A DNA stretch of 64,000 nucleotides from Phycisphaerae bacterium (lineage in GTDB: Bacteria > Planctomycetota > Phycisphaerae > UBA1845), in assembly GCA_028289375.1 (NCBI GenBank), contig JANQQK010000012.1:1-64000 (forward strand), in the 5' to 3' direction. The notes under the pieces were generated by a model. The model was not told the DNA's origin and did not search any database. It saw only the letters and a program-made list of their open reading frames with translations. The position numbers and the translations under genes were made by a program. The stretch's first letter is position 1. Each line of letters begins with the position of its first letter. Below are positions 18,944 through 41,690 of this stretch, in pieces.

Positions 18944-20470
18944 TCATACATACCCTGACCGTACCTCGGCCACGTTGCGTCGCAATCGCAGCCAGCGCCG
19001 AAAACTGAACCCGGAGGAGTGGCCGAGCGGCTGAAGGCGACGGTTTTGAAAACCGTTGAACGGGTAACCGTTCCGGGGGTTCGAATCCCTCCTCCTCCGA
19101 TTGCCACCAAATGACATGTCTCGACATTCGTCGTCATTAACCGACTGTGCTGAAGCGACTTGCGCCGATTCGTTTTCCTCGGGTATGTCCTGTGATATGT
19201 CTTGACTTGCGTCATGGTCCGTCACCGTGCGACAACCGCCGTCATGCCCCGTCCGTGCAACATTTGTACAACAACCTTGCTCGCAGGGATTGAAGTCATC
19301 GGTGCCGGTCGCTGCAAGCCCAATCTCGTCACGTTCCGAATCGAGGCTCGGAAGGGCGTCCAAAGCGTTTGCAGCGTCTAAGACGACGCGGTGGCAATAC
19401 CTGTCCATCGTGAGCCCGATCGAGCCGTGGCGAGCCAGGAGTTGGGCGTCCTTGGGGTGGACACCAGGCTTGGCAATGTTAGTGATGAATGTGTGCCTCA
19501 AAGCGTGAAAGTCCGCGACACGATTCGCGGAGTCCCGATATGGGATCTCAGCCGCCTCCAAGTCCTTCTTGATCATTCGACTCACCCCTGTCGGATACGG
19601 CAACTCAAATAGCAGATCACCCTTGGGCCGTGTCGCGACAAATTTGCGAAGTACATCAGCGAACTCGCGGCGAATTGGTTGCACATCTTCTCGCCGGTGC
19701 TTCGAGTATGCTGCGGCCACAGTGACTGTGGGAGGCGTGGAGGTGAGCGATAGGGAGCCAACAGACAGACTGCGAATCTCATTCGCCCTAAGACCGGTCT
19801 CCACCGCGAAACGGTAGAGCATCGCTCTTTGAGGACCGGTCATCCTGAATCGATGTGGGGCGTTTCGGGTCACCTGCAGCAGTGTTTGTAGCTCCACGTC
19901 AGTTAGGGCTCTTCGCTCGTGTCGCTTGTCAGTCTGAACGTTGTAACGCGGCAAGTGCTTTAGGGGGTCATCAGGAGCCCTTCGATCACGAACCATCCAG
20001 CGAGTGAATTGCTTGCATGACGCAAGATAGTGGTTTGCCGTCTGGAGCGAACGCCCTTTGTCGATCAGGTCCTTGATCGCTGACTGAACGAGCGACGCGG
20101 AGATATCCTGCCAACGCTTAAACTGCCGAGCCTCAATGATGGCATTCGCTCGGCTGCGCTGCTGCGTTGCTTGCTTCGGCGAAGTGCTCTTCGCAACCAT
20201 GGAATCGTGCCAGTCGATAAGGTGATCCGATAGCGGCCTACTCATGTGTTCTTCGTACGGATTCAGGAGTCCAGCAGACTCTATGTGAGCCCGTCGAATC
20301 GCCTCCGAGTAGGCGAGCTCTGCTGCTTTTCTGTCTTGCGTCTTGAGTGACATCCGCACCTGCTTGCCAGTGACTGGGTGTCGGAAGAGACCCCACCAGA
20401 CTGTAGACTTCGTGCGCACACGCTGGCCCCGCTTGCCCTTGCGCGTAACAGTTGGCCGGTATACTCCCAT
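18944..20470 (-). CDS. int: Site-specific tyrosine recombinase/integrase; ORF reads antisense through attL into host DNA
   Basis: ETGLRANEIRSL (Arg box), DFHALRHTFITNIA (HxLRH), LLARHGSIGLTMDRYCH (H...Y); N-terminal SAM-like domain; C-terminal RRRRDSNPRNGYPFNGFQNRR is tRNA antisense translation. Confidence 0.92.
   Translation of the reverse strand: MGVYRPTVTRKGKRGQRVRTKSTVWWGLFRHPVTGKQVRMSLKTQDRKAAELAYSEAIRRAHIESAGLLNPYEEHMSRPLSDHLIDWHDSMVAKSTSPKQATQQRSRANAIIEARQFKRWQDISASLVQSAIKDLIDKGRSLQTANHYLASCKQFTRWMVRDRRAPDDPLKHLPRYNVQTDKRHERRALTDVELQTLLQVTRNAPHRFRMTGPQRAMLYRFAVETGLRANEIRSLSVGSLSLTSTPPTVTVAAAYSKHRREDVQPIRREFADVLRKFVATRPKGDLLFELPYPTGVSRMIKKDLEAAEIPYRDSANRVADFHALRHTFITNIAKPGVHPKDAQLLARHGSIGLTMDRYCHRVVLDAANALDALPSLDSERDEIGLAATGTDDFNPCEQGCCTNVARTGHDGGCRTVTDHDASQDISQDIPEENESAQVASAQSVNDDECRDMSFGGNRRRRDSNPRNGYPFNGFQNRRLQPLGHSSGFSFRRWLRLRRNVAEVRSGYV
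19013..19099 (+). tRNA. tRNA-Ser (anticodon TGA)
   Basis: GGAGGAG/CTCCTCC acceptor stem, ACGGT-TTTGAAA-ACCGT anticodon arm (TGA), long variable arm (GAACGGGTAACCGTTC region), GGTTCGAATCC T-loop; CCA not encoded. Confidence 0.95.
19034..19101 (+). repeat. attL: 68-bp direct repeat = 3' part of tRNA-Ser
   Basis: aaggcgacggttttgaaaaccgttgaacgggtaaccgttccgggggttcgaatccctcctcctccgat identical to 41601-41668. Confidence 0.95.
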
Positions 20471-21085: not shown

Positions 21086-22405
21086 TTACGCCAAACCTCC
21101 ACCGTTTCGATTCAGAAACTCCTTAACGTCCTCAACCGTCGGCAAGCCTTGTGCGACATCCAGCGAGTCCGGATTGATGTGGAAGGCCTGGCCACGCCCG
21201 GGCACTAGCCGTCGATTTTTCCACGAGTCTGGCAACTGTTTGATTCGCCGTCGGACGGTCGTTTCGGGTGTCTTAAGCTTCTTCACCAACTCGGGGATTG
21301 TGTGCTCCGTACCCTCCAGATTGACAACGGAATTTGCGAACTCCACGACCTGTTGGCTGGGTAGGCCGAACACGTGGTTCAGCTCCACCGCAATCAATGG
21401 CCGCGCGTACTTCCAATCTAGTTCGTCTGCATAGACCACTCGGCGTTCATTTGAGTCAGTCTCGAATCTACGCCCCTTTCTGAATTGGCAGACGAAAGTC
21501 ACGGCCTCGACGATCTGCAAAATCCGCTCAAATGCTCTGCGGACGGTCGGGTCATGATTGGGTAGTTGAATCAGATCCGCGAACGGGACGTTGATTTTGG
21601 TATTTCGGGCTCTCCCTAACTGAATCTGACATTGGTGCCACACACGTGACGGAATTGCCCGGCGCACCGATTTGGCAGGGTTTGTTTTGCTCTTCTTTCG
21701 CTTGGGCATGTACTTCCGGCGAATCCGCCGAATCACGGCTTCGGTTTGCGTGGAACTGTCGTCCACCGGAAAGCACGACATCCTGCTGAGGTCCTCAGCG
21801 TTTATGTCCTCTAGTTTCTGGGTCGTGGTAGTGATAAACGCAGTGGGGCCTTCGGCGGTATATTCCGTCGCTTGATTGTCCCGTACTGTTAGGTTGCGCA
21901 CCCGACCAGTTGTGGCCATTTCCCGGAACGCCACACCAAGTTCGGGGTCGATGAATTCTGCGATGAACAGGACGCGATGCTTGAAGCGATCTGAGTCTTC
22001 CTCCAGCTGATTCAGGAGGTACTTCTTCGTCATCTGCGTGGCGGTGATGACCTCGTCCGGCGGAAACATCTCCAGCACACGTTGCGTCACGAATGACTTG
22101 CCGCAGCTCGACGGGCCGTACACGCAAAGGTTGAGCGGACGAGGAAACAAGCGCGTCGTTGCGGTCAAATAGACCATCAAGATGACATTGTATTCACCGA
22201 CAGCTCCTTGGCGGTGAACATGGTCGATCACATGCTGGGGGAAGTCCGGATCCTCAAGCAGCAAAGTCGCAGCTGCACGGCGCTTGTGTTTCGCGGGCGT
22301 TTTCGTGGCAGAGCGGCGCGCTTGATCTAAGTCCTTTTTCTCGCTGCGCTTAGGGCCGCCACCATACTCTGGCTTCGTTTGGCGTTTTGGTTTTCTATCA
22401 GCCAT
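21086..22405 (-). CDS. AAA+/P-loop ATPase, phage/plasmid replication-like
   Basis: Walker A YGPSSCGKSFV, Walker B-like RVLFIAEFID; C-terminal HTH-like segment (LVKKLKTPETTVRRRIKQLPD). Confidence 0.65.
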   Translation of the reverse strand: MADRKPKRQTKPEYGGGPKRSEKKDLDQARRSATKTPAKHKRRAAATLLLEDPDFPQHVIDHVHRQGAVGEYNVILMVYLTATTRLFPRPLNLCVYGPSSCGKSFVTQRVLEMFPPDEVITATQMTKKYLLNQLEEDSDRFKHRVLFIAEFIDPELGVAFREMATTGRVRNLTVRDNQATEYTAEGPTAFITTTTQKLEDINAEDLSRMSCFPVDDSSTQTEAVIRRIRRKYMPKRKKSKTNPAKSVRRAIPSRVWHQCQIQLGRARNTKINVPFADLIQLPNHDPTVRRAFERILQIVEAVTFVCQFRKGRRFETDSNERRVVYADELDWKYARPLIAVELNHVFGLPSQQVVEFANSVVNLEGTEHTIPELVKKLKTPETTVRRRIKQLPDSWKNRRLVPGRGQAFHINPDSLDVAQGLPTVEDVKEFLNRNGGGLA

Positions 22406-22602
22406 ATGCTGGTTCCCTATTGTGCGCGCGGATTCTCCGCAGCGCCGATTCGTGGCGTTGAGCAACTTGCCGTACTAACTAGGCAGTGTGGGTTTGCTCC
22501 CCAACGTCTGCTCCTGATAAAGCGGATGGTGGGAGCGATATTCCGACCTCAAGGAGCGGGCCGCATCCATCGACAGTCGTATGGGCCCCAAGGTCACATG
22601 AT

Positions 22603-22815
22603 TCACTCATGCCGCGCTCCACTCTGTCTGCTAGAAGCACCGATCGTGATCGCCTTTTCGACGTCAGAGAGCTTGAAGAATGCGACCTTTTTTGATGGTC
22701 GAATGCTCGGAATGCGTCCGTGTCGCGCCCAGGCGTACACCGTGGCGACTGTGACGCCGAAGCGTTCGGCGACGGTCTGGACATCAACCCAATCATTAGG
22801 CGGTTCGTTTGTCAT
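22603..22815 (-). CDS. MerR/excisionase-like DNA-binding protein
   Basis: DWVDVQTVAERFGVTVATVYAWARHGRIPSIRPSKKVAFFKLSDVEKAI. Confidence 0.8.
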   Translation of the reverse strand: MTNEPPNDWVDVQTVAERFGVTVATVYAWARHGRIPSIRPSKKVAFFKLSDVEKAITIGASSRQSGARHE

Positions 22816-22921
22816 TCTCAATACCTCCATTGGCGTTGAACTCGTCAACACCAGGAGTCTATCGCGTGAAAGATGGGCATGAGTGGATCAAAGAGTGGAT
22901 ATGTGTGAATATGTGTGGATG

Positions 22922-24401: not shown

Positions 24402-24629
24402 CTAGACCTCGACCCCCGCAATCGCATCATGTAGCGACATTCCAAGCGCCTTGGTCATTCGCTGCAAAGTGAGAATTGTGACGTTGTACTCGCCCCGCTC
24501 TACAGAGCCCACGTAAGTACGGTGCACGCCACACTTCGCCGCAAACTGCTCCTGTGACCACCCTCGATCCTCTCGAACCGACCGAAGGTTCGCACCAATT
24601 CGCACCAATGACCTGTTCTTCCGTGCCAT
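24402..24629 (-). CDS. Xre-family HTH regulator
   Basis: IGANLRSVREDRGWSQEQFAAKCGVHRTYVGSVERGEYNVTILTLQRMTKALGMSL. Confidence 0.9.
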   Translation of the reverse strand: MARKNRSLVRIGANLRSVREDRGWSQEQFAAKCGVHRTYVGSVERGEYNVTILTLQRMTKALGMSLHDAIAGVEV

Positions 24630-24741
24630 AGCGCGAGTGTGATCGTTGACATCGTATAACTCGACAGAGTATAACTAGCACTTGAGATTCGCCGTGGCTG
24701 GCGCTTCGTGGAACAACTCGACTAAAGAAAAGGAGTATCAA

Positions 24742-25101
24742 ATGCGTACCCGCTCCCCACATCGAGGCCATCGAATTCTACTCGCGCTCATCGTGTACGC
24801 GACGACACTATCGACTGTGGGGTGCGGACTTCAGCCAGGTGCCTATGCAGTCAATCCGTCGACCGGGCAGATCACGTCAGTCCCGGCTGATCTAGTCGAG
24901 CTCTGTGAGGTTAGGAGCGCCGCAGAGTTGGAGTCTATCGAGGCCACAATTGACATCTTCCGGCTTCTGCGTCAGCAGGGTGCCACGCGGCAAGAGTTGA
25001 TTAGCGAAGTCCTTCCGCAAGCCGACTGCACGGGGTTTTCCAACTCAAATCAGTGCTTGCGATGCAGCCAGAGGATCATCGATGCAGCGTTCGGCCTCTA
25101 G
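24742..25101 (+). CDS. Small lipoprotein of the element
   Basis: MRTRSPHRGHRILLALIVYATTLSTVGCGLQPG lipobox; aaggag upstream of ATG. Confidence 0.65.
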   Translation: MRTRSPHRGHRILLALIVYATTLSTVGCGLQPGAYAVNPSTGQITSVPADLVELCEVRSAAELESIEATIDIFRLLRQQGATRQELISEVLPQADCTGFSNSNQCLRCSQRIIDAAFGL

Positions 25102-25644
25102 GCAAGCCCGCTAATCGATGAGACGATCCAACAGAGCTGGCAGTCACGGATCGCAAAGCACCACTCGTGGAGCGCTCAAGGTGGCCCAACAACACGTACG
25201 AAGAACGCGAACACACCCGCGTTCCATGTCCATGCGATGATTTCTGCTCGCGCAAAACTGTAGCGACGCGGGCCAATCAGGGCACGCGGCTCGCCCATCG
25301 TTATCCGGAGATCGATGCGATCATCTTCGATCTGGAGCTCGACACGACTGAATTCCAATTCAATCTGGGTTATTCCTTTTGCCACACGTTTGCGCGGGTG
25401 ATCGCTCACCCAAAGCTCGGATCCTCAAGCACAAGCTGTCGTCGATTCGGCTATCGGCCCTGGCAAAACACGCCGTGACCTTTCCTCGCGGAACCGATCC
25501 GCGTAGATTCTCATGAACGTGTGTCTGAACTGGTGGTGTGAGGACTGGTCGAAACTCTGAATGTTGAGAGATGACTCCTGCCAGACTTGACTCGCGGGCG
25601 TCATCGGTCCGATACCAGTATAATCGTCTGAGAAGGAGTTAGTC

Positions 25645-26331
25645 TTGGGCTCGAACTCGCTACTCACAGAACGCGGAATGGTGCGTCGGGCGCTACCTCA
25701 GATATATCCCGCACTCGACATCTGCAAGGAGCACTTCCGCGCGACAAAGGAGCTGACAGTCGGCAAGAGCATTGCGGATGTAGTCTTCTACAAATCAAAC
25801 GACCTTGCAGCATGGCCCGAGGCTCCCCTGTCCGCAACCGAGAGCGTGATTCTCTCGATCGTGCGGCTTCGAAACTCTGCGCGGCTGGACACGATTGCAC
25901 GACACACGTACCTCCCCATTGACGAGGTAGAGGCAGCGGTCATGGGGCGTCTCGTGGCATGGGGCCTCGTGCGGGTGAGGGCGCGTGGCGTCGTTGAGGC
26001 GACGCGGGAGTGGGTCGAGCAGTCAGAGATAATCGCGATCGAGGCGAAGCTGACGAAGTGGAGAGACGCACTCGATCAGGCGATCGAATACCGACACTAC
26101 TCTGATCGTTCGTATGTTCTCCTGCCTGACTATTGCGTCGAGATCGCGATTCGAAACATTCATAAGTTCAAGCAAGCAGGCGTCGGACTCCTTTCTTACA
26201 GTCCAAGGGCAGTCGAAAAGATCCTCGACGCAATGCCGAGCCGAAGGCACCTCTGGCATCGCGAGTACGCTCTGTCGAGGTTGACCCAGAACAGAAGCGG
26301 GAGGGCGACCCGTGTCCGACGAACTGATTGA
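25645..26331 (+). CDS. Putative PD-(D/E)xK-like protein with inserted winged-helix domain (228 aa)
   Basis: KSIADVVFY ... wHTH (LSATESVILSIVRLRNSARLDTIARHTYLPIDEVEAAVMGRLVAWGLVR) ... EIIAIEAKLTKWRDALDQAIEYRHYSDRSYVLLP (ExK then Q); AAGGAG upstream of TTG start. Confidence 0.55.
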   Translation: MGSNSLLTERGMVRRALPQIYPALDICKEHFRATKELTVGKSIADVVFYKSNDLAAWPEAPLSATESVILSIVRLRNSARLDTIARHTYLPIDEVEAAVMGRLVAWGLVRVRARGVVEATREWVEQSEIIAIEAKLTKWRDALDQAIEYRHYSDRSYVLLPDYCVEIAIRNIHKFKQAGVGLLSYSPRAVEKILDAMPSRRHLWHREYALSRLTQNRSGRATRVRRTD

Positions 26332-27118
26332 ACACATCCGACGTCATCTGCCCGGCGGTGTTGAGATCGAGGGTCCGTTAGCTGGAGGCGGCCAGGGTGC
26401 GGTGCTGAAGGGAACCGCCGACGGCGCACCTGCGGCGATCAAAGTCTTCCGGCCTGACACTGATCACCGCCGCGTGGATCGCGAGATCGAGCTTCTCTCC
26501 ACGCTGGACTGTCCGAGGGTCGTAAAGCTCTTGCGGGCCGAGACGCTCACAATCAACGGAGAGAGCCTTCGACTCATCGCTTACGAATTGCATGACGGTG
26601 GGGATCTGACGCGCCACCTCGACACCCACGCTGCAGCCCTCACGCCAGATCAGTTGGTAAAGATTGGGTGCGAAGTAAGTTCGGCGGTCCACGCGCTTTG
26701 GCGTCGGAAGATCGTGCATCGCGATATCAAACCAGCAAACATCGTCGAGGGAAATGACGGCGGTTGTGTCCTTGTGGACGTTGGACTCGCACGACACGTC
26801 GATCGCTCCAATATTACGATTGTGGGTGCGCCTGGTACGCGAGGATTTCGATCCCCGGAGCAAGCATTAGGGCGGAAGTCGCTCACGATCCACTCCGATG
26901 CGTGGTCGCTCGGAGTGACGTTGTACATGTTGGCGACCAAGTACCATCCGTTCGCGGGGCAGGATGTCGTCAACCCCGCTACGGTCGATCTCGGTCCGCT
27001 CGACAGGCGTGGTGACCTGGATCGCCGATTTATCGATACGATTGGCCAGATGCTCAGCTTCGTTCCCGCTCGGCGTCCGTCTAATCTCGTGGAGCGTTTC
27101 ACTTCGCTAGGAGGATGA
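26312..27118 (+). CDS. Hanks-type Ser/Thr protein kinase, single domain, no TM
   Basis: Gly loop LAGGGQGAVLKG, AAIKVF, HRDIKPANIV, DVGLARH (DFG variant), GTRGFRSPEQ, DAWSLGVTLYMLATKYHPF; GTG start overlapping previous ORF. Confidence 0.92.
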   Translation: MSDELIEHIRRHLPGGVEIEGPLAGGGQGAVLKGTADGAPAAIKVFRPDTDHRRVDREIELLSTLDCPRVVKLLRAETLTINGESLRLIAYELHDGGDLTRHLDTHAAALTPDQLVKIGCEVSSAVHALWRRKIVHRDIKPANIVEGNDGGCVLVDVGLARHVDRSNITIVGAPGTRGFRSPEQALGRKSLTIHSDAWSLGVTLYMLATKYHPFAGQDVVNPATVDLGPLDRRGDLDRRFIDTIGQMLSFVPARRPSNLVERFTSLGG

Positions 27119-27121
27119 CCT

Positions 27122-28402
27122 ATGTTCGCATTGAATGAAGGGAGCAAGTGGGGGTCGCCCAAGTACGCCGAGTCGCTTTACGGTGTCGTCTACATGCCAA
27201 TGTCGAACCACGTAGTACGAATGCGGCGCCGCCCGCTCGGGGACGTAACGTGGCAGTTGTTCGATCCGCAGCTCTACCTCGGCGAACTGGATTGTCCGGA
27301 GGCCATGAAGGTATGCGCGCGGCTTTCGACTTATCCTTGGTTTGGTGTTGACGAGATCCCCGAGTTTGACAGCGACGGAGACGGACAGCGAAGCTGGGAG
27401 CATGACGTTCAGGACGTCGTCTGCGACCAATGGCATGGCGACGTAACGGAAGATCCGGGCGAGATCCGGGGCGCAGCATTGTCAGCGATCGAGTTCCAGG
27501 CTGAGATCAGTTGCTCTCACATAATTCTCCCGACTCCACTGGTAACTGAGAGGGAGGACGAGGCAGAAACGCAAGCTATTTGGGTCGATCAGGGACTTGC
27601 GGCAGCAGACGCCGCCGATGTTGGACAGCCGGTCATTGCCACAATCGCGATCAGCGAGGCGGTTCTCAACAACGCTGCGTTCGTGCCTGGCGGGTTTCTT
27701 GATACAGTCGTGGATCAGATCACGGCACGAGAGGGGCTTTCGGGCGTCTACATCGTCGTGGCCCAGACAGACGCGAACCATCCGTTGAAGCCGCCATACG
27801 CGGTAACTGCGGCCTACGCGCACCTTACACGAGCGTTCGCCGAGTTCGGACACGACTTCATCTTTGTGAACTTCGCGGATACTTTCGGCGTTGCGTGCTT
27901 GGGGCTCGGCGCGAGCGCCTTTGCAACGGGGCCGACTCAGAACCTCCGGCGTCTTTCACTCGCCGGATTTGGAGACACAGGCGGCGGGCCATTCCCCAGG
28001 TACTATTCGCACCGTGTCGCCGGCGAGTTCCTTCCCGATGGCGATCTCCGCCACGTAGTTGCCCGTCGGCAGCTTCGACGGGTCGAGGACCGGACGTTGT
28101 ACAGTCGTGACCTTCTCCAATCTCTCGCGCAGAACGGAAGAGCCAACACCGTCGCGAACTGGGTCGAGACACGGAACAATGTTTTCAAGGCGGCTCAGCC
28201 TCACTTCATCTCTAGGATGATCCTGGAGGGGCAAGGGTACAGCGGGCAGACGTTCGCTCAGCGGTCTGCGAGGGCGGAGAGTTGGCTCGACGACGCGGTC
28301 GTGAACCAGGATTACCTCGCGCGTAAGCTAGACGGTACCGGTGCGGCCCCAAACTTTGCACCGGTCGAGGACTGGCTGACACAGCTTCAGGAGCATTCCT
28401 GA
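27122..28402 (+). CDS. Uncharacterised 426-aa protein (possible alpha/beta barrel) translationally linked to kinase
   Basis: Starts 4 nt after kinase ORF end; alternating hydrophobic strand segments (CSHIILPTPLV, PVIATIAIS, GVYIVVAQTD, DFIFVNFADTFGVACLGLGASAFATGPTQ). Confidence 0.75.
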   Translation: MFALNEGSKWGSPKYAESLYGVVYMPMSNHVVRMRRRPLGDVTWQLFDPQLYLGELDCPEAMKVCARLSTYPWFGVDEIPEFDSDGDGQRSWEHDVQDVVCDQWHGDVTEDPGEIRGAALSAIEFQAEISCSHIILPTPLVTEREDEAETQAIWVDQGLAAADAADVGQPVIATIAISEAVLNNAAFVPGGFLDTVVDQITAREGLSGVYIVVAQTDANHPLKPPYAVTAAYAHLTRAFAEFGHDFIFVNFADTFGVACLGLGASAFATGPTQNLRRLSLAGFGDTGGGPFPRYYSHRVAGEFLPDGDLRHVVARRQLRRVEDRTLYSRDLLQSLAQNGRANTVANWVETRNNVFKAAQPHFISRMILEGQGYSGQTFAQRSARAESWLDDAVVNQDYLARKLDGTGAAPNFAPVEDWLTQLQEHS

Positions 28403-41414: not shown

Positions 41415-41600
41415 CTAGTGTCGGCCCGTGGACAGATACGAGTCTACTGCTCGCACCACGAGAGCCTTCACGTCGGGCGGTACATCAGACTCCATGATTA
41501 GTCGGATTGCACGCTCGGCCTCGTCGGAGTTTGCGCGCTTCGGTACAACATTTGTACAACATTCGGCGGAAATCGGCGTTTCTGAGAACGGCAAGGGGGT
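41415..41600 (-). other. Open reading segment in the integrase frame at the element right end (would be the Int C-terminus in the excised circle)
   Basis: In frame across the 68-bp core: TPLPFSETPISAECCTNVVPKRANSDEAERAIRLIMESDVPPDVKALVVRAVDSYLSTGRH* (61 codons, TAG at 41415-41417). Confidence 0.6.
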
Positions 41601-41668
41601 AAGGCGACGGTTTTGAAAACCGTTGAACGGGTAACCGTTCCGGGGGTTCGAATCCCTCCTCCTCCGAT
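41601..41668 (+). repeat. attR: 68-bp direct repeat (truncated tRNA-Ser copy)
   Basis: Identical to 19034-19101; upstream 5' part of tRNA (GGAGGAGTGGCCGAGCGGCTG) absent. Confidence 0.95.
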
Positions 41669-41690
41669 CAAAACCAGGCGTTGTCGCACG

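Follow-up and report, generated by a model that had tools for sequence, protein, structure and literature searches.

The three-gene locus and its setting in the window

Within the 64,000-nucleotide window, the whole stretch of Phycisphaerae DNA that was analysed, three adjacent genes raise the question of whether they form a genuine unit and, if so, what that unit does and whether it corresponds to any described system. A first-pass annotation had read them as a candidate undescribed conflict or defence module. The genes, here termed P1, P2 and P3, are co-directional and, as first described, tightly coupled, with a 20-nt overlap between P1 and P2 and a 3-nt gap between P2 and P3 (25645-28402). 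An AAGGAG Shine-Dalgarno-like stretch (25633-25638) lies ahead of the TTG start of P1. The Xre regulator and small lipoprotein reported ahead of the trio were both recovered, the latter as an ORF with a lipoprotein-like signal recognized from its sequence; it lies outside the conserved trio and was not recognized near the trio in the other loci read.

24402-24629, minus strand: Xre-type repressor, upstream of the trio (Pfam HTH_3, E=1.8e-15)
24682-25101, plus strand: small putative lipoprotein ORF; signal with a VGC lipobox, no Pfam match
25645-26331, plus strand: P1 gene; ORF call, 228 aa, TTG start
26312-27118, plus strand: P2 gene; ORF call, 268 aa, GTG start
27122-28402, plus strand: P3 gene; ORF call, 426 aa, ATG start

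The trio is bracketed by 68-bp perfect repeats, which form the last bases of two tRNA-Ser(TGA) genes 22.6 kb apart, and GC content drops from about 0.60-0.62 to about 0.55-0.57 at about position 19,000.

18944-20470, minus strand: tyrosine recombinase (integrase), left end of the element (PF00589, E=7.9e-16)
19034-19101, no strand assigned: left attachment-type repeat, 3' part of tRNA-Ser(TGA) at 19012-19100
21086-22465, minus strand: protein of the element, weakly similar to P-loop/AAA proteins and possibly involved in replication (AAA_16, E=0.01, under the cut-off)
22603-22851, minus strand: excisionase-like HTH_17 protein (PF12728, 4e-8)
41601-41668, no strand assigned: right attachment-type repeat, 3' part of the second tRNA-Ser(TGA) at 41581-41669

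On the basis of the repeats, the integrase and the GC drop, the trio looks to be carried inside a candidate 22.6-kb tRNA-integrated element; the recombinase and the repeats thus support the earlier placement of the genes in a mobile-element cargo zone. The right half of the element holds chromosome-like, secreted-protein genes (Kelch, beta-lactamase fold, dockerin, DUF1559), and for this reason its right boundary is less certain than its left. Signs of mobility were also found elsewhere: an integrase-like ORF adjoins the one further trio recovered by a family-level search (G012, L110), and an M78 peptidase and an integrase flank the trio on a prophage-like contig.

Co-occurrence and distribution of the trio

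All three genes were found together in about 27 loci, some cut by contig ends, and in three gene orders: P1-kinase-P3, kinase-P3-P1, and kinase-P3 converging on P1. Searching 296 genomes of the window's phylum with a P3 profile built from three sequences detected P3 in 11, counting the window's own genome. P1 was adjacent in 10/10 of the other P3 loci and the kinase in 9/10; among the loci of the phylum, one kinase is cut by a contig end (L028) and one P3 is split over two frames (L034). The trio occurs in the same order as in the window in G048, at about 23-34% identity, and in another order in G080. Carriers comprise members of the phylum, a Polaromonas plasmid, a Priestia plasmid, a haloarchaeal (Natribaculum) plasmid (L013) and IMG/VR prophage-like contigs. 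On Priestia megaterium p6_CACC119 (L036:6885-9554) the kinase and a CxCxxC-bearing P3 are fused into a single protein of 677 aa, with P1 convergent.

Scans of IMG/VR with P3 motifs and, separately, with the P1 active-site motif yielded further trios on prophage-like contigs, and P1-only searches recovered the kinase and P3 beside many matches. The pairing of P1 with P3 is not circular, since each of the two was searched for independently. Scans of viral contigs that used the window-like P3 pair, the L031-type group and a 22-residue-gap motif returned no matches, and short kinase-like ORFs beside P1 in three contigs (L059, L077 and L079) were set aside as doubtful. Furthermore, the existence of three gene orders disfavours mere inherited synteny. 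That the genes constitute a conserved three-gene module is, in our assessment, close to certain. The neighbourhood analysis that the first-pass annotation had called for thus found the trio travelling together, and its named homologues carry no housekeeping label, being annotated as 'hypothetical protein' or 'serine/threonine-protein kinase'.

P1, a predicted PD-(D/E)xK protein with an inserted winged helix

P1 gave no PADLOC or NCBIfam match, no convincing PDB-sequence match and no Pfam match above cut-off. Its active-site set consists of E9, D45, E133-x-K135 and Q145. In an alignment of 32 P1 homologues D45, E133 and K135 are kept in all 32 and Q145 in 31, the full set being essentially invariant; the window contains a single match to the corresponding DNA pattern, against 0 expected from shuffled sequence. 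The AF2 model (pLDDT 87.3) predicts a PD-(D/E)xK-type core of alpha-beta-beta-beta-alpha-beta topology on which the D...(D/E)xK...Q order is kept, with a winged helix-turn-helix (wHTH) at about residues 64-119. Foldseek against the PDB returned 3dnx as the top match (E=2.8e-4), followed by MarR-type wHTH structures; the 3dnx match covers the core and the MarR-type domains match the insert. We take 3dnx to represent DUF2161, a PD-(D/E)xK protein family, and one P1 homologue gave a weak Pfam match to DUF2161 (E=0.12). Matches of the P1 profile to MarR-type structures reach E=0.0014.

The D-to-ExK spacing is 14 residues in the smallest P1 proteins and 86-100 in most of those with a wHTH, which argues that the wHTH has been inserted into a complete PD-(D/E)xK core. 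Many P1 proteins lack the wHTH while their nuclease residues remain invariant. By motif and predicted fold P1 is assigned to the PD-(D/E)xK nuclease superfamily; the alignment, the model and the MarR matches agree with the initial reading of a D...ExK...Q layout split by a wHTH, and the confident model of the core is not that of a non-nuclease fold. P1 is probably a DNase effector. Small wHTH-less relatives of P1 with neither P3 nor kinase were also observed in IMG/VR contigs (L051:6532-6978, L058:1527-1946, L073:3127-3546 and L083:11973-12701), and these may be stand-alone phage nucleases.

P3, a barrel protein resembling tRNA-guanine transglycosylases

As the first reading had it, P3 matches no family, with none found in Pfam, PADLOC or NCBIfam. 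A single-sequence search found no relatives among genome contigs or plasmids and no convincing or meaningful PDB sequence match, and relatives were recovered only with profiles of divergent members. One apparent P3 match (L002) was discarded as chance, the gene being an RND transporter. The earlier description of P3 as barrel-like proved right: the AF2 model, built from 12 sequences, is a beta/alpha barrel-like fold with eight strands (pTM 0.72, pLDDT 63). When this model was compared with 350,542 PDB chains using Foldseek, tRNA-guanine transglycosylases (TGTs) ranked first and second (E 0.010 and 0.011, prob 1.00), with further TGTs at ranks 5, 16, 30 and 42 (E about 0.01-0.17), for a model whose pLDDT is only 63. 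Strand-DPQFY and GAxAxAxG motifs had hinted at a TGT relation prior to folding. D48, P137 and G270 are invariant in 24/24 P3 proteins. A CxCxxC motif of the TGT-zinc type is present in 2/24 (Priestia and L070) and absent from the P3 of the window; the Priestia protein also shows a weak ArcS match at its CxCxxC end.

TGT ancestry was not established at the level of sequence (profile-profile E about 0.35). P3 has no Pfam TGT match, the hhalign comparison with bacterial TGT profiles was not significant (E about 0.36), and neither was the profile-profile comparison with phage 9g DpdA (E about 0.35). We consider it fairly likely that P3 is TGT-derived. The column equated with the TGT nucleophile Asp, an equivalence inferred by motif alignment, is A, G, S or T in 24/24 P3 proteins. 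Because it is never Asp, recognition is favoured over base exchange, and the proposal that P3 is a recognizer rather than a base-exchange enzyme carries about even weight in our judgement.

These data bear directly on a second reading, a modification-restriction pair in which P3, like DpdA, would swap a base in the cell's own DNA and P1 would cut DNA lacking the modification. The TGT-type fold matches are what such a pair would lead one to expect, and Dpd and BRC systems do use TGT homologues (PMC12839542). Against this, the favoured motif alignment leaves no Asp at the nucleophile position in any P3, no 7-deazaguanine synthesis genes were recognized adjoining the trio, and the similarity of P3 to DpdA is not significant; the reading is accordingly held to be very improbable.

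P2, an intact Hanks-type kinase, and loci without it

P2 is a Hanks-type Ser/Thr kinase (Pfam Pkinase, E=1.1e-32) that carries the Lys (VAIK), HRDxKxxN, DxG and APE motifs. Its catalytic residues are all present (K44, E58, H136-R137-D138, K140, N143, D156-x-G158 and E183) and are retained in 12/12 aligned trio kinases. The protein is soluble with no domain beyond the kinase, in keeping with the bare soluble Hanks kinase originally reported.

Several loci hold P1 and P3 with something else in place of the kinase. In G075 (L010:3477-6230) the position of the kinase beside P1 and a divergent P3-like protein is taken by an FRG-domain protein (PF08867, E=1.2e-19), while two loci (L070:8455-11462 and G044, L111:508-3563) encode a Panacea/SocA-like protein, so labelled from a weak Pfam match, together with a probable membrane protein, P1 and P3, and no kinase. 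In G388 (L032, 4977-7208) P1 and P3 converge, no kinase was found upstream, and an aminotransferase-like gene follows directly. Since the kinase-less variants keep P1 and P3, these two likely represent the core and the kinase the exchangeable part.

The function of the kinase can be read in two ways. It may act as a switch rather than a toxin, a proposal that we regard as evenly poised. Alternatively, the kinase could itself be the toxin: P1 and P3 would sense infection or repress the system, and the released kinase would phosphorylate host proteins and bring about abortive infection, as in KKP and Stk2-type systems. Phage defence by kinases that are themselves toxic is known (PMC11341870), all 12 trio kinases checked are intact, and the kinase-less loci hold another candidate effector (the FRG-domain protein, or the membrane and Panacea-like proteins), which suits an exchangeable effector. 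However, the nuclease residues of P1 are kept in 32/32 homologues, a degree of conservation that a pure sensor would not require, no phosphatase antitoxin was recognized in trio loci, and G388 appears to retain P1 and P3 without any kinase. A toxic kinase is therefore considered unlikely.

Defence and prophage context

The most informative neighbourhoods are those in which the trio is nested within restriction operons. In G268 (L026:1017-11490) it is embedded in a type-3 BREX operon, with PglXI on one side and BrxH-PglZ on the other, all on one strand and almost gapless, with PADLOC E-values of 0, 0 and 9e-288 for PglXI, BrxH and PglZ. In G377 the trio sits between HsdM and HsdS, and in G162 it is flanked on one side by HsdS, with a fragment of HsdR farther out, and on the opposite side by an NsnB/AriA-like ATPase. 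It is found beside PDC-S02 and a type I R-M locus in G250, adjoining CBASS phospholipase, cyclase and E2 genes in G322, and near a type IIG/DrmMI-like (type IIG/DISARM-like) enzyme on the Natribaculum plasmid. Known defence genes were present near the trio in 6/17 cellular or plasmid loci, a raw count with no random-gene baseline, and about 10/17 had no recognized defence neighbour within the stretch read. A defence role is supported by the nesting in two types of restriction operon, for which another explanation is hard to find.

A different setting was found on prophage-like contigs, where the arrangement is Xre, M78 peptidase, trio and integrase; the trio also lies next to tail genes (L054) and next to a terminase-like gene (L012), both identified by eye. 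Such contexts would be expected if the wHTH protein and the kinase controlled prophage or element genes, as a regulator of lysogeny or element maintenance, and did not act on invaders. The recurrence of Xre/M78 and integrase genes beside the trio on several of these contigs, and the proximity of Xre and integrase genes in the window itself, are consistent with this. Yet no phage genes were recognized where the trio is nested in BREX-3 and type I R-M operons, and the wHTH is missing from many P1 proteins whose nuclease residues are invariant, leaving a regulatory role with little probability. A role in defence or conflict, as initially proposed and now supported by positions within or next to BREX-3, type I R-M, CBASS and type IIG/DISARM-like genes, is instead strongly favoured.

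Proposed mechanism and significance

The three genes are real and co-conserved, their catalytic motifs are intact, and they are mobile and often situated in defence loci. From these observations we infer the nuclease activity, P3 as recognizer, the order of events and the target of the kinase. The trio would then be a mobile, self-contained anti-invader system in which a P1-P3 core recognizes and cuts and the kinase switches, an interpretation that we find reasonably likely. In this scheme P3, through its TGT-like barrel, would recognize a nucleic-acid feature of the invader. P1, as a PD-(D/E)xK nuclease, would cut DNA, and in many members the DNA-binding wHTH would assist it. P2 would serve as the switch, phosphorylating P1, P3 or a host protein on sensed infection and thereby licensing attack. 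In its broadest form, to which we give somewhat less than even credence, the proposal describes a cross-domain immune system with a core of P1 and a catalytically altered TGT-type recognizer, to which a kinase, FRG or membrane/Panacea-like module would be exchangeably attached.

If correct, this would add a defence system of bacteria, archaea and prophages that is missing from PADLOC (2023), and the TGT fold would gain a function as an immune sensor instead of in base exchange. The natural kinase-P3 fusion and the nesting of the trio within BREX-3 and type I R-M operons make the system directly testable, and a third component that can be exchanged would make it easier to tell recognition by the core from the output of the effector.

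Comparison with known systems

Among described systems, MADS is likewise a mobile defence system with a Hanks kinase, and in PADLOC P2 matches mad6 best (E=3.9e-47). The match is confined to the kinase domain (residues 17-257 against 53-302 of 659) and scores 90.6 bits against an NCBIfam cut-off of 460 bits, while P1 and P3 match no MADS protein and the MAD1-MAD8 set was not found. Membership in MADS was rejected, the similarity being limited to the kinase domain. The possibility that the C-terminal half of MAD6 is a P3 domain was also rejected, as the match of the Priestia kinase-P3 fusion stops at residue 302.

PglW of BREX type 2 and kinase-bearing DndF carry Ser/Thr kinase domains together with a nuclease of the PD-(D/E)xK type (NERD), to which PglW adds wHTH modules (PMC12839542). 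These are single large proteins within BREX or Dnd and have no TGT-like barrel, whereas the trio consists of three genes, and P2 scores 65.5 against a cut-off of 990 bits. No BREX gene set (PglX, PglZ, BrxC etc.) was recognized near the trio of the window, and among trio loci BREX was seen only in L026. Dpd (DpdA) and BRC systems use a TGT homologue in DNA-targeting conflict (PMC12839542); in contrast, the trio has a kinase, no DpdB/C or 7-deazaguanine genes were recognized with it, and P3 shows no significant similarity to DpdA. KKP is a prophage-borne kinase defence built as a kinase-kinase-phosphatase module (PMC11341870). It comprises two kinases and a phosphatase with no conserved nuclease and barrel, whereas the trio has one kinase, and no phosphatase was recognized in the trio loci read. 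The likeness to Stk2 noted in the first-pass annotation holds for the kinase fold that it shares with P2 and goes no further.

A separate arrangement was observed on two contigs (L104:4108-7221 and L105:1-2645), where an sce7726-family ExK-type protein converges on a protein of 360-380 aa beside an Xre/M78-like gene. The partner, labelled T4-beta-protein-like by eye, is probably the product of a barrel gene, and no literature description of the pair was found. It resembles the trio in pairing a small ExK-type protein with a probable barrel gene in convergent orientation, and the P1 profile reaches sce7726 at E=8e-4; it differs in having no kinase, and the P3 profile has no match to the barrel protein.

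No description of the trio was found in the literature searched, which covered open-licence papers and not preprints. Together with the mismatch to MADS, BREX and KKP, this agrees with the original designation of the locus as undescribed. Judged by sequence, the trio would represent a categorically new gene system built from known folds, distinct from MADS, BREX and KKP, and is probably an undescribed microbial immune system.
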